Part shown: in pieces, positions 4,202-25,602 of the stretch | How positions within the stretch are numbered: position 1 is the first letter of the stretch | How the letters are laid out: each line of letters opens with the position of its first letter | From: Leucobacter allii | GTDB lineage: Bacteria; Actinomycetota; Actinomycetes; Actinomycetales; Microbacteriaceae | NCBI RefSeq assembly: GCF_022919155.1 | Contig: NZ_CP095045.1 | Span: 310,001 to 374,000, forward strand | DNA: 64,000 nt | Reading direction: 5' to 3' | Position numbers and translations under genes: made by a program | The notes under the pieces: model-generated | Seen by the model: only the letters and a program-made list of their open reading frames with translations | The model's database searches: none | Told to the model about the DNA's origin: nothing

Positions 4202-4212
4202 TGTGAATCATT

Positions 4213-4225
4213 GGCACTCCGTGCC
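4213..4225. promoter_or_regulatory. Degenerate copy of the GGCACTCAGTGCC palindrome
   Basis: GGCACTCCGTGCC differs at one base from the two perfect copies at 14594-14606 and 18252-18264. On the minus strand it is followed directly by AATGAT, a weak -10-like hexamer, repeating the operator-then--10 spacing of the other copies. Candidate operator for the first NDMA-type alcohol dehydrogenase. Confidence 0.5.
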
Positions 4226-4395
4226 GAAATTGAGGGGTCCGGGTGCGCGGGTGGCCGAGGGGGGATGGCGAGCAAAGATTCACTTGCCGCATCGAATTGC
4301 GAGAAACATTGCATTGGCGTCATGGAAGAGGGATGCATAGCTTGGACAGTGGCACGGCGCTGACTGCCCTGCGAACTCGAGGAATGGAGTTGCCG

Positions 4396-5358
4396 ATGGC
4401 GATGACTCAGAAGAAGACCACGCGGTTGAAGGCGCTCTTCAAGCGGCCCGAGACGGTGATCATGCCCTTCGGCGTGATGCCGATCCACGCGCAGATGGCC
4501 GAGGCGGCCGGCTTCGAGGCGTTCGAGGTCTCGGGCGGGATCAGCGCGTTCTGGTACGGCGTCCCCGATGTCGGCATCCTCACCATGACGGAGTTCGTCG
4601 ACCACTGCCGTCGTGTGGCTCGATCCGTCGATATCCCGGTGTTCTGCGATGCGGATACGGGGTTCGGCCCCGGCCCCGCGAGCGTGCGGCGCACCGTCCA
4701 CGAGTTCATCGACGCCGGCGTCGCCGGCATCCACATCGAGGATCAGGCCGATCCGAAGAAGGCCGGCGGGCAGACCGGGATCGCGCTCGTCTCCGATGAG
4801 GAGGCCATCGGCCGCTTGAACGCCGCGTGCGATGCGCGCGACGAGCTCGATGAGGACTTCGTGATCGTCGCCCGCACGGACGGCTACGGCGCCGGCGGCG
4901 GCAGCCTGGAGGAGGCGATCCGGCGCGGCAAGCTCTACGCCGAGGAGACGGACGCCGACGTCATCTTCTACGAGGGCCTGCACACCTGGGAGCAGATCCG
5001 CACCGCGCTCGCCGAGACGCCGAAGCCGGCGTACGTCATCCCGTCGTTCACGCTCACCTCGCGCCCGTCGATGGAGGAGCTCAGCGCGATGGGGCAGTCG
5101 ATCGACGTCACCCCTTTCATCTACCCGGCCGTCGGCGAGACCTGGCGCATGCTGCTGCAAGTACGCGAGGCGAACAGTTCGAAGCCGCTCAACGACTACA
5201 TGACGGCCGAGCTCGAGCGCCGCGGCACCGAGCTCTACGGCGGCGTCGGCGACAACTGGGTGAAGCCGAGCTACCAGCAGGTGCGCGAGATGGAGGAGAA
5301 ATACCTCCCCGCCTCGATGCAGCGCGACTACGTCAACAACCCGAATGTGAACGACTGA
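4396..5358 (+). CDS. Isocitrate lyase/PEP mutase superfamily protein with altered KKCGH motif
   Basis: 320 residues, a TIM-barrel enzyme of the family that includes 2-methylisocitrate lyase, 2,3-dimethylmalate lyase, PEP mutase and oxaloacetate hydrolases. The metal-binding segment DADTGFG (residues 85-91) and the IEDQ motif (114-117) are intact. The loop that carries the lyase catalytic cysteine (K-K/R-C-G-H) reads KKAGG at 121-125, so the cysteine and histidine are both missing. That argues against a classical isocitrate or methylisocitrate lyase and for a C-C or C-P bond reaction of the mutase/hydrolase type. Start at 4396 has GGAG six bases upstream; ATGs at 4384 and 4402 are possible. 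It is followed six bases later by an MFS gene, so the two are cotranscribed. Confidence 0.85.
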   Translation: MAMTQKKTTRLKALFKRPETVIMPFGVMPIHAQMAEAAGFEAFEVSGGISAFWYGVPDVGILTMTEFVDHCRRVARSVDIPVFCDADTGFGPGPASVRRTVHEFIDAGVAGIHIEDQADPKKAGGQTGIALVSDEEAIGRLNAACDARDELDEDFVIVARTDGYGAGGGSLEEAIRRGKLYAEETDADVIFYEGLHTWEQIRTALAETPKPAYVIPSFTLTSRPSMEELSAMGQSIDVTPFIYPAVGETWRMLLQVREANSSKPLNDYMTAELERRGTELYGGVGDNWVKPSYQQVREMEEKYLPASMQRDYVNNPNVND

Positions 5359-5364
5359 CCTGCC

Positions 5365-6723
5365 ATGACTGACGCAACGGTGGCATCGGACCGGATTCCG
5401 GGAGGCCCGGCGCCGGCGCCGGTGAGTGAATTCCGGCGGGGTTCGCGGGCGCTGATCGGGGGTGTGTTCTTCTACGCGGGCAGTCCGATCATCATCGCGC
5501 AGACGCAGAGCATCATGATCGGTCCGACGATGGAGGCGACGGGACTCCCCGCGACCGCGGTGACGATCAGCCCGTGGATCATCCTCTTCCTCGGGCTGCT
5601 GCAGCCCGTCGCCGGGTGGCTGCTCAAGCGCTACTCGCCGCGTCCCTTCCTCATCACAACCGTCGTGGTGAACGCGCTCGCCCTGCTCGCCTTCGCGACG
5701 CTGCCGCCCAGCTGGCCGATGTTCTGGGGAATCGCCTTCGCCGTCGGCATCTTCGGGTCGCTCGGGTACTTCACGGCGATCTCGCGGATGCTCTCGTTCT
5801 GGTACCGGAAGAACCTCGGGCTCGCCGTGGGCATCGTCGGCGGTGCGGCGTCGTTGCTGCCGTTGATCGCGCTGCCCGTGATGACCTCGTTCATCTACAA
5901 CGGCGGGGGCTGGCGCGCGGGGTACTGGACGCTCTTCGTCTACGTCGTGGTCGTGACGCTGCCGATGGTGATCTGGCTGTTCCGGAAGCCGAAGGAGCCG
6001 CTGTTCGCCGACGACGCCGCGCTGGAATCGACGGGGGCGGGGAAAGCGCCCGAGGCCGCCGGCATGGAGCTGCGCGACATCCTGCGCGACTCCCGCTTCT
6101 GGACGCTGGCCATCGGTTTCGGCATCACGAACACCGCCGTCGGCGGCTTCCTCGCGAACATCGCGGTCGTGGCGCAGGATCGCGGCTTCGACGCCCGCTT
6201 CGCCACCGGCCTCTCGATGGCGATGCTCGTCGGGGTCCTCCTCGGCCGCGTCGTCGGCGGCGTGCTCGTGGATCGGATCTGGAGCTACGCGGGTCCGATC
6301 CTCGTTTTCACCGTCTCCGGGGTCGGCGCCGTGCTGCTGGGCACGTTGCCGAACACGACGCCGATCATGCTGATGTGGATCGTGGCGGCCACGATCGGGC
6401 TGTCGCAGGGCGCGGAGGGGGACTACATCACCTTCTTCAGCCTGCGGGAGTTCGGGGCGAAGAACTTCACCGTCGTCAACGGGATCCTGCTCATGCTCGT
6501 CGGGGTCTCCACGTTCGCCGGCGGCATCACCTTCGCGATCGTGAAGGATCTGACCGGCTCGTACTCCGGGGTGTCGATCGTCATCTCCTTCGCCTTCTTC
6601 GTGGGCGCCGTACTCACGCTGCTCGCCGGGCTCGTGAGTATCCGTGCGCATCGCAACGGGGCGCAGCTCTATGCGGGGAAGGACGCCGCCAACCTCGACC
6701 TCGAGTTCGGCGCCGCCTCGTGA
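5365..6723 (+). CDS. MFS transporter (OFA/monocarboxylate-like)
   Basis: 452 residues with about 12 predicted membrane helices and a central cytoplasmic loop of roughly 40 residues near residues 205-240. The pattern of paired six-helix bundles and the motif after helix 2 (LLKRYSPRP) resemble oxalate/formate-antiporter and monocarboxylate-type MFS proteins rather than drug exporters. It begins six bases after the PEP-mutase-family gene and overlaps the next MFS gene by GTGA, so it is the middle of a three-gene operon. A role in moving an organic acid that the preceding enzyme uses or makes is likely by context only. Confidence 0.85.
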   Translation: MTDATVASDRIPGGPAPAPVSEFRRGSRALIGGVFFYAGSPIIIAQTQSIMIGPTMEATGLPATAVTISPWIILFLGLLQPVAGWLLKRYSPRPFLITTVVVNALALLAFATLPPSWPMFWGIAFAVGIFGSLGYFTAISRMLSFWYRKNLGLAVGIVGGAASLLPLIALPVMTSFIYNGGGWRAGYWTLFVYVVVVTLPMVIWLFRKPKEPLFADDAALESTGAGKAPEAAGMELRDILRDSRFWTLAIGFGITNTAVGGFLANIAVVAQDRGFDARFATGLSMAMLVGVLLGRVVGGVLVDRIWSYAGPILVFTVSGVGAVLLGTLPNTTPIMLMWIVAATIGLSQGAEGDYITFFSLREFGAKNFTVVNGILLMLVGVSTFAGGITFAIVKDLTGSYSGVSIVISFAFFVGAVLTLLAGLVSIRAHRNGAQLYAGKDAANLDLEFGAAS

Positions 6724-8120
6724 CCGCGCAGGCGGGCGGGCCGTCCAGTGCTGTGTACCGCTCCAGCGTCGCAGCCCTGGTGTTCGCCTGCCTCGTCGCC
6801 GGCATGATGCAGACGATGGTCATCCCGTTGCAGGGGGAGTTCCCCCGCCTGCTGGATGCGGAGCCGAGTGCGACGGCCTGGATCGTCACCGCCAATACTC
6901 TCAGCGCCTGCGCCTTCTCGCCCATCGGCGGGAAGCTCGGCGATCTCTTCGGCCGCACGCGCGTCGCGGTGATCCTGATGCTCGTCTTCTCCGCGGGATC
7001 GATCATCGCCGCGGCGAGCGCGCAGGTGGAGGTGCTCGTCGCCGGGCGCGCGCTGCAGGGCGTCGCGATCACGGTGATCCCGCTGAGCATGTCGATCCTG
7101 CAGGAGATCATGCCGGTCCATCGGGTCGCCACGGGCGTCGCGCTCGCGTCCGGCATGCTCGGCGCCGGGGCGGCGATCGGGATGCCGCTCGGCGCGGCCG
7201 TCACGCGTGTCGCCGGATGGCAGGCGATGTTCTGGGTCTGCGCGGTGCTCGGCTTCGTCAGCGTCGTCTGGATGCACCGGGCGGTGCCGCGCACGGCCCC
7301 CGCCGAGCGCGGGGCCCGCTTCGATCTGCTCGGCGCGCTCGGGCTGATGCTCGGCTCGAGCGCGCTGCTCATCGCGCTCTCGCAGAGCCTGAGCTGGGGC
7401 GCCGCATCCTTCGCCCTCTGGGGCGTCGGCGGAGCCGCGCTGCTCGTCCTCGTGGCGACGAATCTCTGGATGCTGCGTGCGGCCTCGCCGCTGATCGACG
7501 TCCGCGTCGCCTGGCGCCCGCAGGTGGTGCGCACCAATGCGGCCGCGCTGGCGCTGAACTTCGCGATGATGGGGGCGAATGTCGCGATCCCGCAACTGCT
7601 CGTGCTCGGCACGGGCATCGGCTACGGCCTGAGCCCGCTCGCCGCCTCGTTCGTCATGATGGTGACGTCGGCGGCGCAGGTCGCCGCGACGCCGGTCATC
7701 GCGCGCTGGAGCCGGCGCTCCGGGCCGCGCGTCGTGCTCGCCGTCGGCAGTGCCGCCGTCGTGGTCGCGCTGGGGGCACCCGCGCTGTGGCCCGGGCCGC
7801 TCTGGTTCCTCGTGGGCTGCGTGGCCGTGCTCGGCTTCGGGTTCGCGCTCGCCTTCGGCGCGGTGCCCCAGCTGGTCATGGCCGCGGTGCCGCCGCACCA
7901 AGTCGCCGCGGCGAACGGGCTGAACACCCAGATCCGCACCTTCGGCACGGCCTGGGGCGCAGCGCTCATCGGAGCGATCCTCGCGGCGACCGCGACGGCG
8001 GGCTGGAGCGCCGAGCGGGGCTTCCTCCTCGCGTTCCTGGTCTCGGCCGGTGCGGCGTTCGCCGCCGTGGTGATCGCCCTGCTGATCCCGAGAGCGGGGT
8101 GCTCGCCGGCCGCCGCCTAG
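6720..8120 (+). CDS. MFS transporter, DHA2/EmrB-like
   Basis: 466 residues from a GTG start that overlaps the preceding stop codon as GTGA (6720-6723), a sign of translational coupling. The sequence has the 14-helix drug:H+ antiporter pattern: WIVTANTLSACAFSPIGGKLGDLFGRTR at the start of the first bundle (GKLGDLFGR is motif A) and GMLGAGAAIGMPLGA (motif C, typical of antiporters). It probably exports a toxic intermediate or the substrate itself. The gene converges on the LysR gene and the two coding regions overlap by four bases (8117-8120). Confidence 0.88.
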   Translation: MTAQAGGPSSAVYRSSVAALVFACLVAGMMQTMVIPLQGEFPRLLDAEPSATAWIVTANTLSACAFSPIGGKLGDLFGRTRVAVILMLVFSAGSIIAAASAQVEVLVAGRALQGVAITVIPLSMSILQEIMPVHRVATGVALASGMLGAGAAIGMPLGAAVTRVAGWQAMFWVCAVLGFVSVVWMHRAVPRTAPAERGARFDLLGALGLMLGSSALLIALSQSLSWGAASFALWGVGGAALLVLVATNLWMLRAASPLIDVRVAWRPQVVRTNAAALALNFAMMGANVAIPQLLVLGTGIGYGLSPLAASFVMMVTSAAQVAATPVIARWSRRSGPRVVLAVGSAAVVVALGAPALWPGPLWFLVGCVAVLGFGFALAFGAVPQLVMAAVPPHQVAAANGLNTQIRTFGTAWGAALIGAILAATATAGWSAERGFLLAFLVSAGAAFAAVVIALLIPRAGCSPAAA

Positions 8121-9046
8121 TCGAGTTCCGGGGGCGGGGCGGTCCCGGGGCCGCCGAAGATCGCATAGGCGTGGGCGAGCACGATGCGGAGCACGAAGCG
8201 TCCGGCGGGGGAGAGGCTCCGGTGCGTCGGCCGGTTCAGCGTCACGGGCGCGCCGGGGAACAGCTGCTTCCGATCGGAGATCGCGAGGCGGACCAGCCCT
8301 GATGCAGCCGGCTCCTGGTTCATGCCGACCAGGATGAGATCCGCATCGTGGACGGCGCGTGCGAGGACGCCCGAGTCGTCGACCTCGATGGACGCCTCGA
8401 GCGGAGGGATATCTTGATCGGCGGAGGACGATGCCAGGACCTCGTTCCACGCCGTGCCGCAGATGCGCTGGTACTCCAGCACGTCCGCCAGCTTGACGCG
8501 CTTCTTCGCCGCGAGCGGATGTGCGGGGCGTACGAAGAACTCCGTCCGAGCCATGCCGATGGGCAGGACGTCCAGCTTCTCGAGCCACGAGGGGTTCGGC
8601 ATCCGCGAGACGAAGAAGTCGAGCTCGCCGTTCAACGTCATGGCGTACATCTCGGTCGCCGGACTCAGCGTCGCCCGGAGGGTGATGTCGTGCTCCGAAT
8701 CGACGATCTCGGAGATGACGCTCGGCAGGATCATCCCGCCGATGTTCGGTCCGAGCCCGATGTTGACGTGCCCGCGCATGCCCTGCGAGCGCATCGAGAT
8801 GTCGGCCTCGATGCTCGTGACGTGCTGCGCCAACGAGTGCGCGTGATGCAGCAGCTCGAGGCCGACGTCGGTGAGTTCGACGCCGTTGCGGCCGCGATCG
8901 AGCAGCCGTGCGTTCAGCGACTTCTCGAGCCCTTGGATGCTGCGGGTGAGCGTCGGCTGCGAGACATGGAGTGCGGCCGCGGCCGCGGTGTAACTCTGGT
9001 GGCTCGCGAGCACGCGGAAGTGCTCGAGCCGCTGCAGGTCAAGCAT
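8117..9046 (-). CDS. LysR-family transcriptional regulator
   Basis: 309 residues from the ATG at 9046 (MLDLQRLEHFRVLA), the usual LysR start; an in-frame ATG at 9058 would add four residues. The N-terminal winged helix contains AAAAALHVSQPTLTRSIQGLEKSL, with the recognition helix SQPTLTRSI, and is followed by a linker helix and a periplasmic-binding-protein-like effector domain from about residue 90. Its start overlaps the end of the HtaA-domain gene by eight bases, so both are made from one transcript that begins near 9480. LysR proteins normally control a divergent neighbour, here the SDR-P450-ferredoxin operon, and may also act at the 4.1-4.4 kb region. Effector unknown. Confidence 0.93.
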   Translation of the reverse strand: MLDLQRLEHFRVLASHQSYTAAAAALHVSQPTLTRSIQGLEKSLNARLLDRGRNGVELTDVGLELLHHAHSLAQHVTSIEADISMRSQGMRGHVNIGLGPNIGGMILPSVISEIVDSEHDITLRATLSPATEMYAMTLNGELDFFVSRMPNPSWLEKLDVLPIGMARTEFFVRPAHPLAAKKRVKLADVLEYQRICGTAWNEVLASSSADQDIPPLEASIEVDDSGVLARAVHDADLILVGMNQEPAASGLVRLAISDRKQLFPGAPVTLNRPTHRSLSPAGRFVLRIVLAHAYAIFGGPGTAPPPELD

Positions 9047-9473
9047 CGGGCTGCCCATCGACGCGCATCGGGTCGAGGAAGTCGCCGGGGGAGTACACGT
9101 CGCCGAGCAGCCGGGCGCCGGTGACGGTCATTCGGATCGTCGCAGTGGCGACGTCCGAGCCCTCGCCCTCGTTCAAGCGCCCGAACTCGAAGCGGACCCC
9201 GTCGCCCTGGTCGATGTCGATCGCGCCGGAGCCATCGATGAGGCGCACCGACGGGTTCGCGACGGTGACATCGAGCAAGCCGCCGTGCGCGACGAAGCGG
9301 ATCGCCCCGGCGAACCGGGTGCCGGTGCCACTGCCGACGGGGCTGCAGTCGACCGCTTGCGGGAAGACGAAGCCGTCGGAGCCCTCCCGCGCCCCGTCGG
9401 AGAGGTGGATCTCTCCGCCCACGGTGCGGACGTAGCGGACGAAGCTGTGGCGGATCGGCCAGATCAGTTTCAC
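9039..9473 (-). CDS. Cytosolic single HtaA-domain protein
   Basis: 144 residues covering one HtaA domain: the SF-x-x-Y start (Phe11, Tyr14), the GG-hairpin, and the FVAHGGLLDVTVANPSVRL core with His63. In corynebacterial HtaA proteins the equivalent Tyr is the heme-iron ligand and the His supports it. Unlike those surface proteins it has no signal peptide, no sortase or membrane tail and no second domain, so it should stay in the cytoplasm. It is cotranscribed with the LysR gene and divergent from the P450 operon, which suggests heme handling for the P450 or small-hydrophobe binding. Function is not established for such stand-alone forms. Confidence 0.75.
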   Translation of the reverse strand: MKLIWPIRHSFVRYVRTVGGEIHLSDGAREGSDGFVFPQAVDCSPVGSGTGTRFAGAIRFVAHGGLLDVTVANPSVRLIDGSGAIDIDQGDGVRFEFGRLNEGEGSDVATATIRMTVTGARLLGDVYSPGDFLDPMRVDGQPDA

Positions 9474-9500
9474 GAAAGACCCCTTTGTTATTCGAGAATC

Positions 9501-9514
9501 GCATTAAATAGTGC
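9501..9514. promoter_or_regulatory. Candidate LysR-type site in the HtaA/SDR divergent promoter
   Basis: The 150-bp gap between the HtaA gene and the SDR gene is unusually AT-rich for this genome. It contains the interrupted palindrome GCATTAAATAGTGC (GCA-n-TA-nn-TA-n-TGC symmetric positions), the kind of T-N11-A-like dyad LysR proteins use. Position next to the LysR operon supports the reading; no second copy was found. Confidence 0.4.
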
Positions 9515-9623
9515 ATCTAATTGCTGGATAAGAATCGGTCTGTCTTCATAGAGTACGGGGCAAGCCCGATCGCGTAAAGCGCGTCGACGAAGACGCGGCG
9601 CATCTGGAGAACTGGGTGGCAAC

Positions 9624-10466
9624 GTGAACGCCGAATTGGATTTCGCCAGCGCGAACGCAGTGGTGACCGGCGCCGGCAGCGGCATCGGCCGCTCGATCGC
9701 GCTCGAACTCGCACGACTGGGAACGCAGGTGCTCGTCGCCGACATCAACGGCGAGGCGGCGGCGGCGGTCGCGGCGGAGATCACCGCCGCCGGCGGCACC
9801 GCGATCTCGCGCGGCGTCGATGTCACCGACCTCGCGAGCGTCGAAGCGCTCGCCGACGACGCCTTCGGCGAGTTCGGCCGCGTCGACATCCTCTGCAACA
9901 ACGCGGGCGTCACCTGGCGCCCGTTCCGGGCGGTGTGGAACGCGAAGATCTCGGACTGGCGGTGGATGATGGAGGTCAACTTCTTCGGCGTGCTCAACGG
10001 TGTGCAGACCTTTCTGCCGCGCATGCGGGAGCAGTCGGGCCGCAAGCACATCGTGAACACCTCCTCCCTGGCCGTGCACTCCACGAACCCGGGACACGCG
10101 CCCTACACGGCATCGAAGCACGCGGTCGACGGCCTCAGCGACGTGCTCCGCGAGGAGCTCGTCGACCACCGGGACGACTTCGGCGTCACCGTGCTCTACC
10201 CCGGGCTCATCACCACGAACATCGGCGAGACGAGCAAGGCCGTGCGGCAGCAGGAGACCGGCGACGATCTCTCCGATGCCATCGCCTACGAGCAGGTGCG
10301 CACCTTCGACTTCCCGCACAACGCTCCGAAGTCCCCGGAGAACGTCGGCAAGCAGGTCGTCGAGGCGATCCGGCAGAACGACCCGTACTGCATCACCCAT
10401 CCCGCCCCCACGGATCAGATCGAGGAGCGCGGACGCCTCCTCGCCCGCGGCTACCGCGGCCACTGA
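9624..10466 (+). CDS. Short-chain dehydrogenase/reductase heading the P450 operon
   Basis: 280 residues, classical SDR: TGAGSGIGRS cofactor loop near residue 15, CNNAGV structural motif, and the catalytic Ser and Tyr-x3-Lys (YTASK). It lacks the extra segment after strand 2 that marks the mycofactocin-coupled SDRs further along, so ordinary NAD(P)+ use is expected. A GTG start at 9624 gives the family N-terminus. It lies 36 bp ahead of the cytochrome P450 and probably oxidises the alcohol that the P450 makes, or a related diol. Substrate not determinable. Confidence 0.9.
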   Translation: MNAELDFASANAVVTGAGSGIGRSIALELARLGTQVLVADINGEAAAAVAAEITAAGGTAISRGVDVTDLASVEALADDAFGEFGRVDILCNNAGVTWRPFRAVWNAKISDWRWMMEVNFFGVLNGVQTFLPRMREQSGRKHIVNTSSLAVHSTNPGHAPYTASKHAVDGLSDVLREELVDHRDDFGVTVLYPGLITTNIGETSKAVRQQETGDDLSDAIAYEQVRTFDFPHNAPKSPENVGKQVVEAIRQNDPYCITHPAPTDQIEERGRLLARGYRGH

Positions 10467-10502
10467 ACACCCGTCCCCGACCGCAGAGAAGCGAGAGTAC
10501 CC

Positions 10503-11765
10503 ATGACCATTCCAGCCGACATCGATGCGAAGCTCGTCGACCCCGCGTTCTTCGCCGGCACCGAGTTCCACGCCGTTCTGAAAGCCCTGCGCGAGGAGGA
10601 TCCCGTGCATTGGACCGATGCTCCCGGCTACTCGCGGGGCTTCTGGTCGTTGACGCGCTACGAGGACTGCCTGCGCCTGCTGCAGGAGCCGGAGAACTTC
10701 TCCAGCGCCGCCGGCACGCACATTCCGCCGAACGGGCGCGAGCTCACCGAGGAGGAGCGCTACAAGATGGGCTTCGACGTGAACCTCGTCACTTCCGACC
10801 CGCCGGAGCACCAGGAGCGCCGCGCCCCGTTCAACCCGCACTTCAGCGTTCCTGCCGTCAACAAGTTCCACGAAGACTGCGACGCGATCATCGACGGGAT
10901 CCTCGACGACATCGCCGAGAAGGGGACGGCGGAGGGCGTGACGGAGATCTCGGCGCTCCTCCCGGTGCGCCTCTTCCTGAACCTGATGGCCGTACCGGAG
11001 GAGGATTGGGAGATGGTGCGCAACATCACCCTGCGCATGCTCCACCCGGACGATCCCCACTGGGGGGATCCGCACGCGTCGGACCACAACGCCCTGATCG
11101 CCGACGCGATGGGCGACCTGAACGAGTACATGGCCTCCCATGTGCTCTCCCGCCGCGGGAAGGAAGGCTCCGACTTCGCGACCCTGATCGCGAACAAGGA
11201 CTACCGCGGCACGCTCCTTCCGGAGCGCGATGCGGGCGTCATGGGCTTCACCGTCGTCGCCGGCGGCCTCGAGACCACCCGCAACGCCGCCGCGATCGCG
11301 ATCATGGAACTCGCCCGTCGCCCCGAGCAAGCTGCTCTGCTGCAGGATCCGAAGATCGCGAAGTCCGCTGTGGAGGAGATCATCCGCTGGGTGACCCCGT
11401 CGAAGAACCGCCTCCGGGTCGCGACGAAGGATCTCGAGATCGGCGGCAAACAGATCAAGAAGGGCGACTGGGTCGTCGGCTGGATCGTTTCCGCGAACCG
11501 GGACGAGTCGGTGTTCGGCCCGACCGCGACGGAGTTCGACATCACGCGATCGCCGAACCCGCATCTGGGGTTCGGCGACGGCGAGCACATCTGTCTCGGA
11601 CGCAACGTCGCCCGGCTCGAGCTGCGGATGCTCATTCAGAAGCTGTTCGAGCGCTTCCCCGACCTGCACCTGTCGAGCGCACCCGAATGGGTGCACTCCA
11701 CCAACACGTCCGGTTTGACGTCGCTGCCGCTCGCATTCGAGCCGCGCGTCGCGGTCGGCGTCTGA
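10503..11765 (+). CDS. Cytochrome P450 (class I bacterial)
   Basis: 420 residues, soluble, no membrane anchor. The heme-binding loop is FGDGEHICLG with the axial thiolate Cys364; the I-helix has AGGLETTRN (acid-alcohol pair for O2 activation) and the K-helix has EEIIRW (ExxR). Overall it resembles actinobacterial P450s that hydroxylate terpenoids, fatty acids and sterol side chains (CYP124/125/142-like), but I cannot assign a family. It is followed directly by its own ferredoxin and reductase, giving a complete three-component monooxygenase. RBS-like GAGAAGCGAGAG lies shortly before the ATG. Confidence 0.95.
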   Translation: MTIPADIDAKLVDPAFFAGTEFHAVLKALREEDPVHWTDAPGYSRGFWSLTRYEDCLRLLQEPENFSSAAGTHIPPNGRELTEEERYKMGFDVNLVTSDPPEHQERRAPFNPHFSVPAVNKFHEDCDAIIDGILDDIAEKGTAEGVTEISALLPVRLFLNLMAVPEEDWEMVRNITLRMLHPDDPHWGDPHASDHNALIADAMGDLNEYMASHVLSRRGKEGSDFATLIANKDYRGTLLPERDAGVMGFTVVAGGLETTRNAAAIAIMELARRPEQAALLQDPKIAKSAVEEIIRWVTPSKNRLRVATKDLEIGGKQIKKGDWVVGWIVSANRDESVFGPTATEFDITRSPNPHLGFGDGEHICLGRNVARLELRMLIQKLFERFPDLHLSSAPEWVHSTNTSGLTSLPLAFEPRVAVGV

Positions 11766-11798
11766 ATCGTCGGCTCACAAGAATCTGAGGAGAGAATC

Positions 11799-12119
11799 AT
11801 GACGGAGATCACATTCATCACGCCGAGCGACGGAGCGGAGCGCCCCGTATCCTTCGCGGAGGGCGAGAGCGTGATGCAGGCGGCGGTGAACAGCGATGTC
11901 CCCGGCATCGAAGGCGAGTGCGGCGGCGAGATGAACTGCGGCACCTGTCATGTGCTGGTCGACGCGTCGTGGCGGGAGCGTTTCGAGGCGCCGAGCTGGG
12001 ACGAGGACGTGATGCTCGACATCGTGGAACGCGAGCCCGGCAGTCGTCTGGGGTGCCAGCTCAAGCTCCAGCGGGCGCACGCCGGACTGGTGGTCACCGT
12101 GGCCACCGGGGAGGACTGA
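11799..12119 (+). CDS. 2Fe-2S ferredoxin, putidaredoxin/adrenodoxin type
   Basis: 106 residues. The four cluster cysteines are Cys41, Cys47, Cys50 (C-x5-C-x2-C) and Cys86 in LGCQL, the spacing of vertebrate-type ferredoxins such as putidaredoxin. It should carry single electrons from the reductase encoded five bases downstream to the P450 encoded 33 bases upstream. The TGAGGAGAGAATC before the ATG is a strong ribosome-binding site. Confidence 0.95.
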   Translation: MTEITFITPSDGAERPVSFAEGESVMQAAVNSDVPGIEGECGGEMNCGTCHVLVDASWRERFEAPSWDEDVMLDIVEREPGSRLGCQLKLQRAHAGLVVTVATGED

Positions 12120-12124
12120 TCGAG

Positions 12125-13366
12125 ATGGACACCTTCGATACGGTCATCGTCGGCGCCGGGCATGCCGCCGTCTCGCTCTACGCACAGCTGCGGAAATCGG
12201 GTTACGCCGGCCGTATCGGCGTGTTCGAGAAGCAGGACCACCTGCCCTACGAGCGCCCGCCGCTGTCCAAGGGATACATGACCGGCGACGTCTCAGAGAC
12301 CGAGCTGCTGCTTCGACAGCCGCAGTACTGGGACGACGCCGCGGTCGAGTTGCGCACCTCCACGGAGGTCGTGTCGTTGGACGCCGCCTCGCAGACGGTG
12401 ACGACGGCCGCCGGTGAGACGATCGGCTACGGAACGCTCGTCTGGGCGACCGGCGCCTCGGCCCGCGAGCTCCCGCTCGACGGCGCCGACTCGGCCAACG
12501 TCGTCTCGGTGCGGACCCTGGACGATGCCAGGCGGCTCTCGACGCTCGCCCGGGGAACCGCGCACTCGGTGATCATCGGCGGCGGCTACATCGGGCTGGA
12601 GACCGCGTCGACGCTCGTGAAGCTCGGCCATCGGGTGACGGTGCTCGAAGCTCAGGAGCGCCTGCTCGCCCGCGTCGCCGGACCGACGATCGCGGCTCGG
12701 TTGCAGCGGGTGCATGAGGAACACGGCGTGCGGGTCCTGCTCGGCGTCGGCGTGGAGCGCATCGAGACCGACGGGGATCGCGCGGTGGCCGTCCACCTCG
12801 CCGATGGCGAGCGGCTCCCCGCCGATGTGATCGTCGTCGGGGTGGGCGTGATCCCGGAGATCGCACTGCTCGCGGAGGCCGGAGCGGAGATCGGCAACGG
12901 CGTCATCGTCGATGCTGAGGGGCGGACGACGCTGCCGCACGTGTACGCGGTGGGCGATATCGCCGCGCAGCAGAACGCGTTCGCCGGCGGCGCGGTCGCG
13001 CGGCTCGAATCCGTGCCGAACGCGGCCGACCAGGCGAAGGTCGTCGCCGCCTCGATCGTCGGCGCGGCGCCGGTCGAGCGCGCCGTGCCATGGTTCTGGT
13101 CCCACCAGTACGAGCTCAGGCTGCAGACGGCCGGCATTCTGACGGGCTTTGACCGGGAGGTCGTGCGCGAAGGGGCGGACGGAGCGATCACGGTCGGCTA
13201 CTTCAAAGACGACGCGCTCCTGGCCGCGGATTGCCTCGGGGCGCCGGCGGACTTCAACGCCGTGAAGAACGCGCTGAAGCAGCGCGTCGCGGTGACGGCG
13301 GAGCGGTTCGGCAGTGCGGAGCCGTTGACCGTCGCGCTGCGCATGACGAGTCCGGCCTCAGCTTGA
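12125..13366 (+). CDS. Ferredoxin reductase, FAD and NAD(P)H dependent
   Basis: 413 residues from the ATG at 12125. An N-terminal FAD-binding motif (VIVGAGHAA), a central NAD(P)H-binding motif (IIGGGYIGLE) and the late FAD motif ending in YAVGDIA match putidaredoxin-reductase-like oxygenase reductases, as does the C-terminal beta domain (WSHQYELRLQTAG). It delivers electrons to the adjacent ferredoxin. Last gene of the SDR-P450-ferredoxin-reductase operon; a strong hairpin follows. Confidence 0.95.
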   Translation: MDTFDTVIVGAGHAAVSLYAQLRKSGYAGRIGVFEKQDHLPYERPPLSKGYMTGDVSETELLLRQPQYWDDAAVELRTSTEVVSLDAASQTVTTAAGETIGYGTLVWATGASARELPLDGADSANVVSVRTLDDARRLSTLARGTAHSVIIGGGYIGLETASTLVKLGHRVTVLEAQERLLARVAGPTIAARLQRVHEEHGVRVLLGVGVERIETDGDRAVAVHLADGERLPADVIVVGVGVIPEIALLAEAGAEIGNGVIVDAEGRTTLPHVYAVGDIAAQQNAFAGGAVARLESVPNAADQAKVVAASIVGAAPVERAVPWFWSHQYELRLQTAGILTGFDREVVREGADGAITVGYFKDDALLAADCLGAPADFNAVKNALKQRVAVTAERFGSAEPLTVALRMTSPASA

Positions 13367-13372
13367 ACGACC

Positions 13373-13422
13373 GCGTCGCCGGGAGCGGGTGCCCGAAGTA
13401 CCCAGCCCGCTCCCGGCGACGC
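13373..13422. terminator. Bidirectional hairpin between convergent genes
   Basis: A perfect 17-bp stem (13373-13389 with 13406-13422) and 16-base loop lies between the converging ferredoxin reductase and alcohol dehydrogenase 2 genes. There is little T after either arm, so factor-independent release may be inefficient, but the position fits a shared terminator. Confidence 0.7.
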
Positions 13423-13434
13423 TCCTTCAGGCGT

Positions 13435-14556
13435 CTAGCCGAAGCGGATCACGCCGCGGATGTTCTTCCCCGCGCGCATGTCGTCGTAGGCGTCGTTGAT
13501 CTCGTCGAGCGAATAGGTCTTCGTGACCAGTTCGTCGAGCTTGAGGTTGCCGGCCCGGTACATCGCGAGCAGCTGCGGCATGGCCTCGCGCGGCGACTTC
13601 ATGCCGTAGAGGGCGCCCTGGATCCGCTTCTGCATCATGGCGAGGTGGAAGCCGTTGAGGCCGGGGACGGTGCCCTCCTCTCGGTCGTTGCTCACCGCCG
13701 TCACCACGACGGTGCCGGCCTTGCGGATCGCGAGCAGGCCCTCGCCGATGATCTGATTCGTCATGAGGCTCGGGGTGAGCACGGCGACGTCGGCGCCCTG
13801 GCCGTTCGTCAGCTCGCGGATGCGCGGCATCGCCTCCTCGATCGAGGCGAAGGCCTCCGTGGCGCCGAAGTCGAGCGACCACCGCTGCTTGTCGGGCACC
13901 GGATCGGCGACGATGATGTGCGACGCCCCGGATTCCCGCGCGCCCTGCACGGCGTTCATGCCGACGCCGCCGACGCCGGCGACCAGCACGACGTCGCCGG
14001 GCTGGATGTCCCCGGCGTAGGCCGCGGAGCCGAAGCCGGTCTGCACGCCGCAGGCGACGAGGCAGGCGACTTCGAGCGGGATGCTCGGATCGATCTTGAT
14101 GAGCGAGAGCTGGTCGTACACCTGCCATTCGGCGAAGGTGCCGAGGAGCGCGGCGGTCGCGACGTCGAGGCCGTCGTCGGTGTGGATGCGGAACGTGCCG
14201 TCGAGCTGGTCGCCGACCATGATCTTCGCGCCGTTGTCGCAGAGGTTCTGCTTCCCGTTGGCGCACCAGCGGCACTTGCCGCAGGCGGGGATGAAGGAGG
14301 TGAGCACGTGGTCTCCCTCGGCGAAGTCGGTGACTCCCGGTCCGAGCTTGCGCACGATGCCGGAGCCCTCGTGCCCGCCGATGACCGGGAGGTGCGCCAC
14401 CTGCGCGTCCCCGGCCGAGATGTGGTCGTCGCTGTGGCAGAGGCCCGTCGCGACCATCTCGACCAGCACCTCCCCGTAGCCCGGCTCGTCGAGCTCGACC
14501 TCCTCGACGTTCCATTTCCCTGGTGCTTCCCTGAGGACGGCGACGCGCGTGCGCAT
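13435..14556 (-). CDS. NDMA-dependent (mycofactocin-type) zinc alcohol dehydrogenase 2
   Basis: 373 residues, closely similar along its length to the enzyme at 2948-4063. It shares the catalytic zinc ligands Cys40, His62 and Glu63 and the structural cysteines in CGKCRWC...C, and has GVGGVGMNAVQG as the nucleotide loop. Members of this family hold NAD(H) without exchanging it and are reoxidised by mycofactocin. AAAGGAG stands eight bases before the ATG, an excellent ribosome-binding site. A perfect GGCACTCAGTGCC palindrome and a TATACT -10 box lie just upstream, so it has its own regulated promoter. It lies between the P450 operon and the MFT locus, which fits oxidation of a P450-made alcohol. 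Confidence 0.92.
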   Translation of the reverse strand: MRTRVAVLREAPGKWNVEEVELDEPGYGEVLVEMVATGLCHSDDHISAGDAQVAHLPVIGGHEGSGIVRKLGPGVTDFAEGDHVLTSFIPACGKCRWCANGKQNLCDNGAKIMVGDQLDGTFRIHTDDGLDVATAALLGTFAEWQVYDQLSLIKIDPSIPLEVACLVACGVQTGFGSAAYAGDIQPGDVVLVAGVGGVGMNAVQGARESGASHIIVADPVPDKQRWSLDFGATEAFASIEEAMPRIRELTNGQGADVAVLTPSLMTNQIIGEGLLAIRKAGTVVVTAVSNDREEGTVPGLNGFHLAMMQKRIQGALYGMKSPREAMPQLLAMYRAGNLKLDELVTKTYSLDEINDAYDDMRAGKNIRGVIRFG

Positions 14557-14587
14557 GGATGATCTCCTTTGATCGAGCAGTGCACCG

Positions 14588-14606
14588 AGTATAGGCACTC
14601 AGTGCC
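14588..14606 (-). promoter_or_regulatory. Promoter and operator of alcohol dehydrogenase 2
   Basis: On the minus strand the perfect palindrome at 14594-14606 (GGCACTGAGTGCC in that direction) is followed without a gap by TATACT (14593-14588), a near-consensus -10 box. A bound repressor would cover the -35/-10 spacer. The same 13 bases recur at 18252-18264. Confidence 0.65.
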
Positions 14607-14626
14607 GTTATCCTGCGCTCTCAGGT

Positions 14627-15187
14627 CTACCGGAGGTCGCGGCCCCCGTCAAGCACCCCCGCCCCGCCGTCCCTCCGGCGGGCGCGGTGGCGCCGGACGG
14701 CCTCCCGGCTGCCGCACCTCGGGGAGCAGAACCGCTGCCGGCCGTTGCGGGAGACGTCGACGACGACGCGGTCGCAGCCGTCGGCCGCGCAGCGTCCGAG
14801 CCGCGACATGCCCCGGGTGGTGAGATGGAGCGCCGTTCCGACGCCGAACACGGCGTGGAGCACGCGCGGCAGCTCGTCCTCGGTGCCCCGGTAGTGCAGG
14901 TGCCAGCCCTCCCCGTCGTGGTCCGTGAGCCGCGGGTAGGCCGCGGCCGCCGCCATCGCGTCGTTGAGGAGCACCGCGCGCGCATCGGCGCTCGGCGCGT
15001 CCACGACGCGGAGCCACGCGTCGACCACGGCGCGGCAGCGGTCGTGATCGTCCGCCTGCTCGCGGAACCGCATGGTCATGCCGTACTCGCGCGTGCGCGC
15101 CACGACGCCGGCCCGATCGTCGGGCCAGTCGTCGGCGAGCGAGCGGGCCAGCAGCACCGCGTACTCGCCGTAAGGGTTGAGATGCAT
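14627..15187 (-). CDS. CGNR zinc-finger / ABATE-domain protein, probable regulator
   Basis: 186 residues. The N-terminal part matches the stress-induced ABATE domain, and the C-terminus has the zinc-finger arrangement C-x4-C ... C-x3-CGSR, the CGNR motif with Ser for Asn, followed by a basic helix. Proteins of this build are thought to be transcriptional regulators. It is divergent from the LysE-family exporter, with only 17 bases between the two starts, so control of that exporter is the simplest role. Alternative start codons exist but ATG at 15187 gives the full ABATE domain. Confidence 0.82.
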   Translation of the reverse strand: MHLNPYGEYAVLLARSLADDWPDDRAGVVARTREYGMTMRFREQADDHDRCRAVVDAWLRVVDAPSADARAVLLNDAMAAAAAYPRLTDHDGEGWHLHYRGTEDELPRVLHAVFGVGTALHLTTRGMSRLGRCAADGCDRVVVDVSRNGRQRFCSPRCGSREAVRRHRARRRDGGAGVLDGGRDLR

Positions 15188-15204
15188 AAAGGCATTACAT
15201 CAGC

Positions 15205-15882
15205 ATGGACCACATGCTGTCGAACGCCGCTCTGCTCCCCGTCTCCGCCGCCGCGGCCGCGGCGATGATCGCGACCGCCCTGGCGATGGTGCTCGTCCCC
15301 GGCCCGAACATGATCTACCTGCTCTCCCGCAGCATCGCTCAGGGGCGTCGTGCGGGGCTCGTGTCCTTGGGCGGTACCGCGCTCGGCTTCGTCTGCTACA
15401 TGCTCCTTGCCAACCTCGGCCTCGCCGTCGTGCTCGTCGCCGTGCCGTGGCTGTTCATCGGCCTTAAGGCCGCGGGGGCCCTCTATCTCGCGCACCTCGC
15501 CTGGCGGGCGCTCCGGCCGGGGCGCCGGGATCCGTTCGAGCTGCGCGGCGCCCCGCGCCACAGCGCGGTCCGCCTGTTCCGCATGGGCCTGACGACCAAC
15601 CTGCTCAACCCCAAGTCGGCGATCATGTACCTCACGCTCATCCCGCAGTACGTGGATCCCGCGCGCGGTCACGCGCTGCTCCAGGGCGTGACGCTCGGCG
15701 CGCTGCAGATCCTCGTGAGCGTCGCGGTCAACGCGCTCATCGTCCTCGCCGCGGGCTCACTGGCGCCGAGGCTCGCGGCCCGCCCGGCGTGGGAGACGTG
15801 GCAGCGCCGGATCACCGGCAGCCTGCTCGGCGCCGGGGCGCTCCTCCTCGCCCGCGAGATCCCGGCGCGCGCCCACGGCTGA
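15205..15882 (+). CDS. LysE/RhtB-family exporter
   Basis: 225 residues with about six membrane helices and the family signature MVLVPGPNMIYLLSRSIAQGRRAG near the N-terminus, plus the conserved LLNPKSAIMYL segment. LysE/RhtB proteins export amino acids and related small metabolites by proton exchange. It starts 17 bases from the divergent CGNR gene and is probably regulated by it. The specific solute is unknown. Confidence 0.9.
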   Translation: MDHMLSNAALLPVSAAAAAAMIATALAMVLVPGPNMIYLLSRSIAQGRRAGLVSLGGTALGFVCYMLLANLGLAVVLVAVPWLFIGLKAAGALYLAHLAWRALRPGRRDPFELRGAPRHSAVRLFRMGLTTNLLNPKSAIMYLTLIPQYVDPARGHALLQGVTLGALQILVSVAVNALIVLAAGSLAPRLAARPAWETWQRRITGSLLGAGALLLAREIPARAHG

Positions 15883-15946
15883 GCCGCCGGACGCGCGTCG
15901 GAGCACGCCGGATGCCGGCGCGCATCGGCCCTGAAACCCCTGCGCG

Positions 15947-17503
15947 CTACCGCCCGACGAGCATCGCGCGCGCCAGGAACTCCCCGATGAAGACGGCGGT
16001 GTTCGCCGGGCCCCGATGCGGGGCGGAGGGGAGGATCGAGGTGTCGGCGACGCGCAGCCCGGCGACGCCGCGCACCCGCCCCGCACCGTCGACGACCGCG
16101 CCCATCGGCGCCGTCGCGCACGTGTGGAGCGCGGTGCCGTGGCGGGCGAGGATCCAGTCGTCGAGCGCCGCGTCGTCGTCGAGCACGGCGCCGTCGAGGT
16201 CGATCAGCCGGCCGAACACCTCGGAGAAGGCCGGCGCGCGCAGCAGGGCGACGGCGGCCCGAACGCCGGCGCGCATCCGCCTGCGGTCCTCCGCTCCCGC
16301 GAAGTAGTCGTACTTGATCCGCGGCGGATCCAGCGGGTCGGCGCTCGTGAGCGAGAGCCGTCCGCGGCCGCGGTGCTCCTGCAGCGCCACGAGGAACTGC
16401 AGCGTCTCGGCCTCCCGCCGCCCGCCCGCGAGCAGGAACTCGAGCGGTTTCGCGCCGAGCAGGATCTCGAGGTCGCCCTCGGGGCAGGGAACGAGCGCGG
16501 GATCGACCGCGGCGGCGTCGAGGTTCAGCGCGGTCGGGAAGCCGTACCCCGCCTCCCAATCGACCACGGGGCGGCGCGGCTCCCAGGCGAGCGCGAGATT
16601 CGGGTGATCCGCGAGGGCGGTGCCGACGGGGAGCGCCGCGACGACCCCGATCCCGTGCTCGGCGAGGTGCGCGCGCGGTCCGATGCCGCTCAGCAGGAGC
16701 AGCTGCGGCGTCGCGATCGCGCCGGCCGAGAGCACGACCTCGTCCGCGGCGACGGGGCCGCGCTCGGTCTCGACGCCGACGGCGCGCGGGCCCTCCGCGG
16801 CGCCCTCGATGATCACCCGCAGCACGCGCGTGCCGCCGCGGATCTCGAGTCGCCCGCGCGCGGCCGCCTCGAGCGCCGCCCCCTCCAGGTAGGCCGTCGC
16901 GGTGCTCCGCCGCACGCCGTCGATGATGTTCGACGGGACCGGGCCGACGCCGGGGGCGCCGCCCGCGTTCTTGTCGGCCTCGACGGGGAAGCCGAGCTCG
17001 CGCGCCGCCGCGGTGAACGCCGCGGCGACGGGTCCGTCCTGCGGGGGCCGCGCGACGCGGACCGGGCCGTCGGCGCCGTGCAGGGCGGTATCGCGGACCG
17101 GATCGAGCTCGTGCTCCAGTGCGCGGAGGATCGGCAGGGCGCGCGCGTACGACCACTCGGGGCCGCCCGCGGCGGCCCAGCGGGCGAAATCGTCCCGCGT
17201 CGCGCGGACGAAGTAGCCGCCGTTCACTGCGGTCGAGCCGCCGAGCCGCTTCCCCCGCGCGATGACGTCGGGCCGCCCGCGCCCGAGCTCCACCTCGTAG
17301 CGCCAGCCGTCCGGCCGGCCGGGCAGCGCGCCGCGGAGCGCTCCGCCGTCGAGGAGTTCGGGCGGGGGAGGGGCGGAGTCCCCGGCCTCCAGGAGGACGA
17401 CCGCCCGGCCCGGATCCGCGGCGAGCCGGGCGGCGAGCGGCGCTCCCGCGCCGCCCGCGCCCACGATCACGGTGCGCCGCGGGCGCCCCGGTGTGGCGCT
17501 CAC
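15947..17503 (-). CDS. mftG: Mycofactocin-system GMC oxidoreductase MftG
   Basis: 518 residues from a GTG start that overlaps the mftR stop codon as GTGA (17500-17503). It is a GMC flavoprotein: FAD motif VIVGAGGAGAPLAARL near residue 12, the GGSTAVNGGYFVRA segment, the second GMC signature (GAIATPQLLLLSGIG), and the C-terminal active-site region with HTCATAPMG and RGPANTAVFIGEF. The close fit to MftG and its coupling to mftR make the call firm. In mycobacteria MftG reoxidises reduced mycofactocin and passes electrons to the respiratory chain. Here it would close the redox cycle for the nearby nicotinoprotein dehydrogenases. Confidence 0.9.
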   Translation of the reverse strand: MSATPGRPRRTVIVGAGGAGAPLAARLAADPGRAVVLLEAGDSAPPPPELLDGGALRGALPGRPDGWRYEVELGRGRPDVIARGKRLGGSTAVNGGYFVRATRDDFARWAAAGGPEWSYARALPILRALEHELDPVRDTALHGADGPVRVARPPQDGPVAAAFTAAARELGFPVEADKNAGGAPGVGPVPSNIIDGVRRSTATAYLEGAALEAAARGRLEIRGGTRVLRVIIEGAAEGPRAVGVETERGPVAADEVVLSAGAIATPQLLLLSGIGPRAHLAEHGIGVVAALPVGTALADHPNLALAWEPRRPVVDWEAGYGFPTALNLDAAAVDPALVPCPEGDLEILLGAKPLEFLLAGGRREAETLQFLVALQEHRGRGRLSLTSADPLDPPRIKYDYFAGAEDRRRMRAGVRAAVALLRAPAFSEVFGRLIDLDGAVLDDDAALDDWILARHGTALHTCATAPMGAVVDGAGRVRGVAGLRVADTSILPSAPHRGPANTAVFIGEFLARAMLVGR

Positions 17504-18120
17504 GATGCGTGCAGGCCGAACACCGACTCCGCCGTGACGAAGGCCTCGTCGATCAGCGCGAGCAGGTCGGCGTCGTCGTCGGCGAGCCAGCGCTCGTACG
17601 ATCCGATGCACATGCCGAGGCACGCGTACGCGATGGTCTGCGGAGCGAGGTCGTCGGGCGCCGCGCCCGTGCGCGCGGCGACGAACTCGGCGATGACCGC
17701 GCGCCAGTCCGCGTACTTCAAGGTGGAGTAGGCGGTGAGCGAGGGCACGGTGAGCAGCAGCGACATCCGGCCGCGGTGGTAGGCATGCTCCTCCGCGGGG
17801 AAGGTGTTGAAATCGAGGATGGCGTCCTTGAGCGCGCGCATGAGCGGCAGCTCGGGATCGGTGCCCGCGAGCCGCGCGCGCATCGCCTGCAGCAGGGGCG
17901 CGAAGTCCCCCCACGGCAGCTCGTTCTTCGAGGCGAAGTAGCGGAAGAGCGTGCGTCTGCCGATGCCCGCGCGCTGCGCGATGTCGTCCATCGTGGTCGC
18001 GTCGAAGCCCCGCTCGATGAACAGGTTCAGCGCGATGTGGCTGAGCTCCCCGTGCGTCGTCGCCGGGGCGCGGCCGATGCGCGGCGCCGTCGCCGCGGTT
18101 CCGGCCGGTTCGGGATCCAT
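17500..18120 (-). CDS. mftR: Mycofactocin-system TetR-family regulator MftR
   Basis: 206 residues. The N-terminal helix-turn-helix reads FIERGFDATTMDDIAQRAGIGRRTLFRYFASKNELPWGDF, matching MftR proteins, which carry this RRTLFRYF-SKN-PWG pattern. The ATG at 18120 has GGAG six bases upstream; longer forms read through low-quality sequence. MftR in mycobacteria represses the mft operon and responds to long-chain acyl-CoA. Here it is divergent from the first mycofactocin-coupled SDR and cotranscribed with mftG. The palindrome at 18252-18264 between the two starts is its likely operator. Confidence 0.9.
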   Translation of the reverse strand: MDPEPAGTAATAPRIGRAPATTHGELSHIALNLFIERGFDATTMDDIAQRAGIGRRTLFRYFASKNELPWGDFAPLLQAMRARLAGTDPELPLMRALKDAILDFNTFPAEEHAYHRGRMSLLLTVPSLTAYSTLKYADWRAVIAEFVAARTGAAPDDLAPQTIAYACLGMCIGSYERWLADDDADLLALIDEAFVTAESVFGLHAS

Positions 18121-18251
18121 GTGCTGCTCCGTTTCCTCTGCCGTGCAGCTTACCCCGGCGCGTCCCGGTGCACGGCGGAGGCCGGGCGGGCGGCCGGATG
18201 GCCGCGTGCGGGAGCCCGCCGACGGCGAAGTGCCGGCCATCCCTTCCCACC

Positions 18252-18272
18252 GGCACTCAGTGCCACTAGGGT
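18252..18272 (+). promoter_or_regulatory. Probable MftR operator with -10 box before SDR 1
   Basis: Perfect palindrome GGCACTCAGTGCC (18252-18264) followed two bases later by TAGGGT (18267-18272), a TAnnnT -10 box reading toward the SDR gene. The copy is identical to that before alcohol dehydrogenase 2. It lies between divergent mftR and SDR 1 and could control both. The rest of the 275-bp gap shows nothing else. Confidence 0.65.
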
Positions 18273-18395
18273 GAGGACTGCGGGCAGGACCCGCCGATGC
18301 CGTCGCCCGGGCCCACCGGACCGGCGCGACACGACACGGGTCATCCGCTGCGCAACACACCGCTGCACATCTCAACGACGAGAAGAGGAATGGTC

Positions 18396-19220
18396 ATGGC
18401 TGGAAGAGTCGAGGGCAAGGTCGCGTTCATCACGGGGGCCGCGCGCGGGCAGGGCCGCGCGCACGCGCTGCGCCTCGCCGAGGAGGGCGCCGACATCATC
18501 GCGATCGACATCGACACCCAGGTGGAGGGCGTGCCCTACGCCACCGCTCGCGCGGAGGACCTGCAGGAGACGGTGCGGCAGGTGGAGGCGCTCGACCGGC
18601 GGATCGTCGCGGAGACCTGCGATGTGCGGGATCCGGATCGGCTGCGGCAGGTCGTCGCGCAGGGCGTCGCCGAGCTCGGCCGGCTCGACATCGTCGCGGG
18701 CAACGCCGGCGTCGACATCGTCGGCCCGTGGCACTCGATGACCCCCGAGATCGTGCGCACCACGATCGACATCAACCTCATCGGCGTCTGGAACACCGTC
18801 ATGGCCGCCGTCCCCGCCATCATCGAGGCGGGCAACGGCGGATCCATCATCCTCACGAGCTCCGCGAACGGCCTGAAGGCCGGGCCGTGGAACATGGCCT
18901 ACAACATGTCGAAGTACGGCGTGACGGGCATGGCGAAGTCCTTCGCGCAGGAGCTCGCGAAGGACGGCATCCGCGTCAACAGCGTGCACCCCGGCGGGGT
19001 GGACACTCCCATGGCGCAGGGCATCATGGGCGTCGAGGATTCCGGCTTCACCCGGGGCAACGAGGAGAACCCGCTGCTCATGGGCATGCTCACCCAGTGG
19101 ATCCCCGGCATGATGCCGCCGCGGGAGATCTCCAACGCGGTGCTCTTCCTGGCCTCGGACGACGCCGCGTGGGTCACCGGCCACGCGCTCGCGGTCGACG
19201 GCGGCATGACCCAGTACTGA
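18396..19220 (+). CDS. Mycofactocin-coupled SDR 1
   Basis: 274 residues. TGAARGQGR (13-21) is the cofactor loop, NAG(V) and the Tyr-x3-Lys (YNMSK) are in place, and the extra segment after the second strand (ATARAEDLQETVRQVEALDRR) marks the mycofactocin-coupled SDR family, whose members keep NAD bound and use MFT as acceptor. It differs from the three following SDRs most clearly in its substrate loop (PMAQGIMGVEDSG). AGAGG lies seven bases before the chosen ATG; an ATG six bases earlier is possible. Two hairpins follow it, so it may be a separate transcript from SDRs 2-4. Confidence 0.92.
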   Translation: MAGRVEGKVAFITGAARGQGRAHALRLAEEGADIIAIDIDTQVEGVPYATARAEDLQETVRQVEALDRRIVAETCDVRDPDRLRQVVAQGVAELGRLDIVAGNAGVDIVGPWHSMTPEIVRTTIDINLIGVWNTVMAAVPAIIEAGNGGSIILTSSANGLKAGPWNMAYNMSKYGVTGMAKSFAQELAKDGIRVNSVHPGGVDTPMAQGIMGVEDSGFTRGNEENPLLMGMLTQWIPGMMPPREISNAVLFLASDDAAWVTGHALAVDGGMTQY

Positions 19221-19227
19221 GCGCGAT

Positions 19228-19289
19228 CGGGGCGCCCGCGGGCGCCCCGAGGGCGGCTCGCCCGGTCTCGCGCCGCAGGCGAGCCGCCC
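19228..19289 (+). terminator. Two consecutive hairpins after SDR 1
   Basis: A perfect 22-bp palindrome (19228-19249, CGGGGCGCCCG and its complement) is followed by a 12-bp stem (19251-19262 with 19278-19289). No T-run follows. They fill most of the gap to SDR 2 and probably end or reduce transcription from the SDR 1 promoter. Confidence 0.55.
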
Positions 19290-19340
19290 GTACCACCCCA
19301 GATGCGGCGCGAACCCGAACACGAAGGAGTGGCAGGAATC

Positions 19341-21935: not shown

Positions 21936-21941
21936 GCGCGC

Positions 21942-24144: not shown

Positions 24145-24173
24145 TTCCTTTTGACACCGGGTGTCAATATAAT
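24145..24173 (+). promoter_or_regulatory. mftD promoter with palindromic operator in the spacer
   Basis: TATAAT at 24168-24173 is a perfect -10 box. Exactly 17 bases separate it from a weak -35 (TTCCTT, 24145-24150), and those 17 bases are the perfect 8-1-8 palindrome TTGACACCGGGTGTCAA (24151-24167). A repressor bound there would block the promoter. The half-site differs from the GGCACT type, so a second regulator or a second mode of MftR binding is possible. Confidence 0.65.
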
Positions 24174-25513: not shown

Positions 25514-25602
25514 GCTGACGCCGCCGGCCGACGCGCGTCGGCCGCGCCGCCGGCCGGCGGCATCCCCGTCGACCCGTGACGTTCGAAGGAGCACCGATCC
25601 GC

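Follow-up and report, generated by a model that had tools for sequence, protein, structure and literature searches.

What switches the mycofactocin (MFT)-dependent dehydrogenases, and whether the synthesis of this cofactor is regulated together with the enzymes that use it, is an open question. It is raised here by a stretch of the Leucobacter allii genome in which a 13-bp palindrome recurs in front of such genes. The stretch, referred to below as the window, is 64,000 nucleotides long (positions 310001-374000 of a single contig, NZ_CP095045.1, of 3,562,128 bases), and scans for the 13-mer were run on the window and on the whole genome. The window carries mftR (17500..18120, minus strand), the product of which is a TetR-family repressor that scores 254.7 bits with TIGR03968 (cut-off 224.9) and has the MftR C-terminal domain PF17754; among the solved structures closest to it is a chain with the name MftR (8x0a). 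As we argue from sequence, the palindrome is quite probably the MftR operator, and five promoters, which serve cofactor synthesis and several cofactor-using dehydrogenases, would be under the control of MftR.

Palindromic sites at five promoters

The original prediction had placed exact copies of the palindrome at two promoters and a copy with one mismatch at a third, each beside a -10-like box, and all of these copies and boxes were found. GGCACTCAGTGCC is present exactly at 14594-14606 and 18252-18264, and GGCACTCCGTGCC, with one mismatch, at 4213-4225. The copy at 14594-14606 is the candidate operator of ADH2 (13435..14556, minus strand), a gene for an N,N-dimethyl-4-nitrosoaniline (NDMA)-/MFT-dependent alcohol dehydrogenase (ADH) matching TIGR03989 with 522 bits (cut-off 440). 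Read in the direction of the gene, on the minus strand, it is GGCACTGAGTGCC, a perfect 6+1+6 dyad with a matrix score of 19.6, and it abuts the box TATACT (14588-14593, minus strand) at a distance of 0 bp. The copy at 18252-18264, on the plus strand, lies between mftR, which is transcribed from the minus strand, and an array of MFT-coupled short-chain dehydrogenase/reductase (SDR) genes on the plus strand, and the box TAGGGT (18267-18272, plus strand) faces the array from 2 bp away, the layout being GGCACTCAGTGCC-AC-TAGGGT. The third candidate operator belongs to ADH1 (2948..4063, minus strand; TIGR03989, 541.3 bits, cut-off 440; a TTG start is proposed); it reads GGCACGGAGTGCC in the gene direction on the minus strand, has one arm pair broken and a matrix score of 15.3, and is 0 bp from AATGAT (4207-4212, minus strand). 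Two parts of the original prediction were too narrow or too broad. It had confined the palindrome to just these three promoters, which do carry it, but a diverged version is also found at the mftD and mftA promoters. It had also spoken of both alcohol dehydrogenases, and two of them do have a site, but the genome has four NDMA-type ADH genes over the cut-off and the other two are without one.

The diverged candidate operator in front of mftD, which codes for the premycofactocin synthase (24233..25513, plus strand; TIGR03966, 658 bits), is GACACCGGGTGTC at 24153..24165 on the plus strand, 2 bp from the -10 box TATAAT (24168..24173, plus strand). TTTTGACACCGGGTGTCA is common to this site (24153) and to the one in front of mftA (genome position 616448), with the box TATAAT or TAGGAT 2 bp past the 13-bp dyad. 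Both sites lie within a 17-bp palindrome, TTGACACCGGGTGTCAA, at 24151-24167 and, with one end base different, at genome positions 616446-616462, and no further place for it was found in the whole genome at up to two mismatches. The gene in front of mftC was named mftA by its end, IDGMCGVY, which we take to be typical.

The number of copies is not by itself evidence of a regulon. In the whole-genome scan, GGCACTSAGTGCC at up to one mismatch has four places, namely the three described above and one at 993825, whereas its reversed control has seven, and so it is the placement and not the count that is remarkable. Three of the four places precede genes for MFT-dependent dehydrogenases, for which the probability under random placement is near 3e-10, calculated post hoc. 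The fourth (L004), which is overlapped by a 259-aa open reading frame (ORF) without a Pfam match, was considered as a member of the regulon and rejected because of this ORF and because no mft gene was recognised alongside, its neighbours not having been searched further. Rarity of the 13-mer was likewise rejected as proof on its own, since the reversed control is more frequent and several dyads recur in the window; seven perfect 6+1+6 dyads, including this one, occur more than once there, and four of the other six consist of G and C only. At up to two mismatches, strand-matches in the window number nine compared to 2.6 expected, and nine was reached by one of 100 shuffles. The core GGCA-N5-TGCC is found at 64 places genome-wide versus 229 for its reversed control, and its three places in the window are identical to the three reported sites. 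GRCACYNRGTGYC, a motif that covers both forms of the operator and from which the ADH1 site is one base off, has six places in the genome versus seven for its reversed control. Four of the six are at MFT-gene promoters (ADH2, SDR, mftD, and mftA), while of the other two one (L293) is within a long frame with typical G/C3 and the other (L294) is overlapped by ORFs. The case is carried by location and by outside evidence, not by count.

MftR and its probable operator in other genomes

In Mycolicibacterium smegmatis, the MftR footprint is given by Mendauletova and Latham (PMC8728441) as TCCATTCTGGCACTCGATGCCATATAT, with the palindrome core GGCA-N5-TGCC. The footprinted operator, Omft, contains GGCACTCGATGCC and then ATATAT, with which the footprint ends and which we read as a would-be -10 box (PMC8728441). 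The system described here is like that one in having a TetR-family MftR and a GGCA-N5-TGCC dyad with an odd centre, and the core is present in all three reported sites. The 13 bases of GGCACTCGATGCC are also found in front of mftC in many loci of family f11.

A collection of 101 mftR loci was assembled from six of nine matches of one search (three weak or partial ones were omitted), five of 10 matches in the genus (five of 110-126 bits were omitted), and 90 matches in a class sample of 393 genomes. In this sample 92 genomes have an MftR match, 91 of them over the cut-off, and its 98 matches include, besides the 90 and the one from this genome, six second copies and one match at a contig start, which were omitted. 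Counts were made for the 100 loci in which the 400 bp ahead of mftR are complete and for 200 draws of random windows. In 48 of these 100 loci GGCA-N5-TGCC occurs within the 400 bp, compared to a mean of 4.4 (maximum 12) in the random windows and to 2 of 100 for the reversed control, an enrichment of about tenfold. The relaxed pattern GRCAYN3RTGYC is upstream of mftR in 63 of 100 loci (random mean 5.1) and in 12 of 15 groups, and the 900 bp ahead of mftC contain it in 45 of 66 loci, a raw count without random control. The 48 operator-bearing loci, two of which are from this genus, one being this genome, are not independent because the sample is unbalanced, with 35 of the 100 loci from f11 and 23 from f23. 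Three loci of family f25, L082, L125, and L128, have the exact 13-mer upstream of mftR. In genome G140 of f25 it is flanked by mftR and a divergent mftA; a second exact copy precedes the run mftC-D-E-F as ttccctac-GGCACTCAGTGCC-AT-TAGGGT, which resembles the SDR promoter here. The presence of a TIGR03968 MftR, the core shared with the published operator, the copies in G140, and the enrichment upstream of mftR support MftR as the likely regulator, as the original prediction had supposed. A separate observation is that in G230 a second MftR-like gene is surrounded by six operator-like dyads in pairs (L287:4465-5977 and 18249-18315).

In a genus sample of 54 genomes, this one included, four have an MftR over the cut-off, and none of the other 22 genomes of the same family in the class sample has one; this rarity suggests that MftR was gained by transfer. 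The three sister genomes with MftR bear on whether there is one operator or two. G028 has GGCACCGAGTGCC at the SDR/mftR promoter and TGCACCGAGTGCC at mftA, G052 has GGCACTTGGTGCA at SDR/mftR and GGCACTCGGTGTC at mftD, and G033 has GGCACCCGATGTC at mftD and GACACCCGGTGTC at SDR, the G033 mftD and the G052 SDR sites having been spotted by eye and not by the scan. In all nine non-ADH sites of the genus, that is, these six and the SDR, mftD, and mftA sites here, a TANNNT box is exactly 2 bp past the dyad. Mixed forms also precede mftC elsewhere, namely, GACACCGAGTGCC and GGCACTGAGTGTC in f21, GACACCGGGTGCC in f42, GGCACTGGGTGTC in f25, and GGCACCGGGTGTC in f43, and f20 has a GACAC..GTGTC form. The site in front of mftA here is of the GACACC..GGTGTC form, and it is tied to Omft through intermediates. 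Since intermediates are found in the three sisters, a single operator family, GRCACYNRGTGYC, can account for all five sites, and the extension of predicted MftR control to mftA and mftD is supported.

If, on the other hand, MftR acted on the GACACCGGGTGTC form alone, at mftA and mftD, and some other repressor acted on GGCACTCAGTGCC at the dehydrogenase promoters, then the two forms would be divided by gene type, and in this genome the division is clean. Another protein may indeed use GGCACTSAGTGCC, because it is enriched in family f24 where MftR is nearly absent. The exact 13-mer is present in 95 of the 393 genomes of the class sample, and in f24 40 of 43 genomes have one to six copies, 34 having two to six, while the reversed control is rare; MftR was found in one of these 43 (G240). 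Some other use of the palindrome in f24 is implied, and it follows that MftR is named not by the 13-mer in itself but by its neighbourhood. Two regulators are nevertheless quite improbable in L. allii, as the division by gene type is broken in the sisters, where the SDR promoter of G033 has the GACACC form and mftA of G028 has TGCACCGAGTGCC. This swapping of forms between gene types argues for one protein. Moreover, the GGCACTSAGTGCC form sits between mftA and mftR in G140 and is closer to the footprinted operator. It was also considered that the palindromes are structural, as terminators or hairpins, because in G023, which has no MftR match, the 13-mer is at the heart of a longer, terminator-looking inverted repeat (L051). 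The dyads in the window are short and are located upstream of genes and next to -10-like boxes, and this explanation is extremely unlikely.

Weighing the evidence at the alcohol dehydrogenases

Several findings weigh against an MftR operator, some of them at all of the sites and others at the ADH sites in particular. Among the former is the frequency of the 13-mer in f24 with a single MftR. In addition, the published flanks, T-N2 and N2-A, are not both present at any of the three reported sites, which have A or T at both flank positions, as is mostly so in the 41-site matrix. GGCA-N5-TGCC is missing upstream of mftR in 52 of the 100 loci. The mftA and mftD sites, which read GACA-N5-TGTC, fail this core, and GACACC..GGTGTC scores just 4.8 on the matrix trained on GGCA-N5-TGCC sites. 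Lastly, the letters RRT-x-FRY of the recognition helix do not vary among the 48 operator-bearing MftRs and hardly vary among the other 53. Conservation of this helix was rejected as evidence because the MftRs without an upstream site are nearly as conserved and it does not discriminate between them.

For the ADH sites, 53 MftR-bearing genomes were chosen, including this one, of which 40 have NDMA-type ADHs at E <= 1e-125. They have 104 such genes, and one upstream region (L233) is shortened by a contig end. A score of at least 14 was reached in 4 of the 104 upstream regions (two here, and one each in G140 and G232 of f25), compared to a mean of 0.4 and a maximum of 1 for shuffled sequences and 0 of 33 for a coding control. 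At a cut-off of 10, there are five regions versus a shuffled mean of 2.95 (maximum 7). The ADH sites are, therefore, not conserved. G140 and G232 are the poorer parallels because the -10-like box at their sites faces away from the ADH. The outside case that is closest in geometry is in G109 (f35), where GACACTCGATGCC, with a score of 11.8, is followed 2 bp on by TAGGTT facing the ADH. Within the genus, NDMA-type ADHs at the same threshold are found in this genome (four) and in G052 (one), and the upstream scan found no site at the latter; a site was also looked for at the ADH-aldehyde dehydrogenase-ADH cluster at 109-113 kb of this genome and none was found. Both ADH sites here have the box 0 bp from the dyad, compared to 2 bp at the other nine sites of the genus, and AATGAT of ADH1 is off the TANNNT pattern. 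The case for MftR control of the ADHs comes mainly from this genome, such sites being rare elsewhere.

These findings, together with the broken arm pair of the ADH1 copy, are what one would expect if MftR controlled the mftR/SDR promoter and the mft genes while the two ADH sites were products of chance or relics without effect. This is unlikely, because such an explanation does not fit the placement of three of the four genomic one-mismatch copies before MFT-dependent dehydrogenase genes, and because at each ADH site the adjoining -10-like box is oriented like the gene. We consider it likely that ADH1 and ADH2 belong to the predicted MftR regulon.

Gene context and proposed regulation

An aldehyde dehydrogenase gene (1435..2928, minus strand) lies beside ADH1 and is perhaps in one operon with it. 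Near ADH2, at 10503-14556, are genes for a P450, whose nearest solved relatives in PDB are CYP125 designs, and for a ferredoxin reductase-like protein; our guess is that a route may start with a hydroxylation. The SDR array consists of four paralogous genes in tandem on the plus strand (18390-21935), at 18390..19220, 19341..20171, 20214..21056, and 21075..21935, all of which match TIGR03971. The first is carveol dehydrogenase-like, and closest to it in PDB are a 'putative oxidoreductase' and carveol dehydrogenases. Between the array and mftD, at 21942-23879, is a pair of AAA (GvpN-like) and VWA (CoxE-like) genes that is retained in the sister genome G052 (L058). The glycosyltransferase gene mftF (25576..27231, plus strand; TIGR03965, 300 bits, cut-off 280) is 3' of mftD. 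The mft cluster is in two parts, with mftR, mftD, and mftF at 17500-27231 of the window and mftABCE at 616-619 kb of the genome, about 280 kb off. Thus, MftR is accompanied in the genome by the biosynthesis genes mftD, mftF, and mftC, the last at 617 kb with 649 bits; mftB and mftE were named by position.

We propose that a dimer of MftR would bind GRCACYNRGTGYC, or at ADH1 a site one base off it, directly ahead of the -10 box, and that bound MftR, from the position of the site, would keep RNA polymerase off. The five promoters would serve ADH1 with the aldehyde dehydrogenase, ADH2, the four-gene SDR array, mftD-mftF, and mftABCE at 616 kb, the extents of these operons being predicted. In M. 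smegmatis, over-expressed MftR represses the mft genes and MftR binds C12-C18 acyl-CoA (PMC8728441). If an acyl-CoA ligand also releases MftR here, then cofactor synthesis and the dehydrogenases would be turned on together, and since the oxidation of alcohols and aldehydes probably yields acyl-CoA as an end product, this may constitute a positive feed-forward loop. It is conceivable, though we hold it rather doubtful, that there are two grades of operator, 17 bp at the two cofactor-synthesis promoters and 13 bp at the dehydrogenases, that open at different acyl-CoA thresholds.

Unlike in M. smegmatis, where a single protected site, before mftA, is reported (PMC8728441), five sites are predicted here, three of them at dehydrogenase promoters, the mft genes are spread over two loci, and the cofactor promoters have the GACACC..GGTGTC form. 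The authors of that study expect additional regulators to act (PMC8728441). A literature search for the 13-mer found no paper, and no report of MftR control of alcohol dehydrogenases was found in the titles, beginnings of abstracts, and passages that were searched. The two-component system MnoSR of M. smegmatis methylotrophy, which is linked to an MFT-dependent methanol dehydrogenase, is alike in that a regulator is tied to MFT-dependent alcohol oxidation and unlike in the type of regulator. The operator is known in kind, and its use at catabolic dehydrogenases seems to be new.

It seems that in this bacterium the genes for the cofactor and for some of its client enzymes are switched by one regulator. 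With its five MftR-type sites, three of which precede MFT-dependent dehydrogenases, this genome makes the question of their co-regulation directly testable outside the mycobacteria, and the motif GRCACYNRGTGYC would allow MftR regulons to be predicted.

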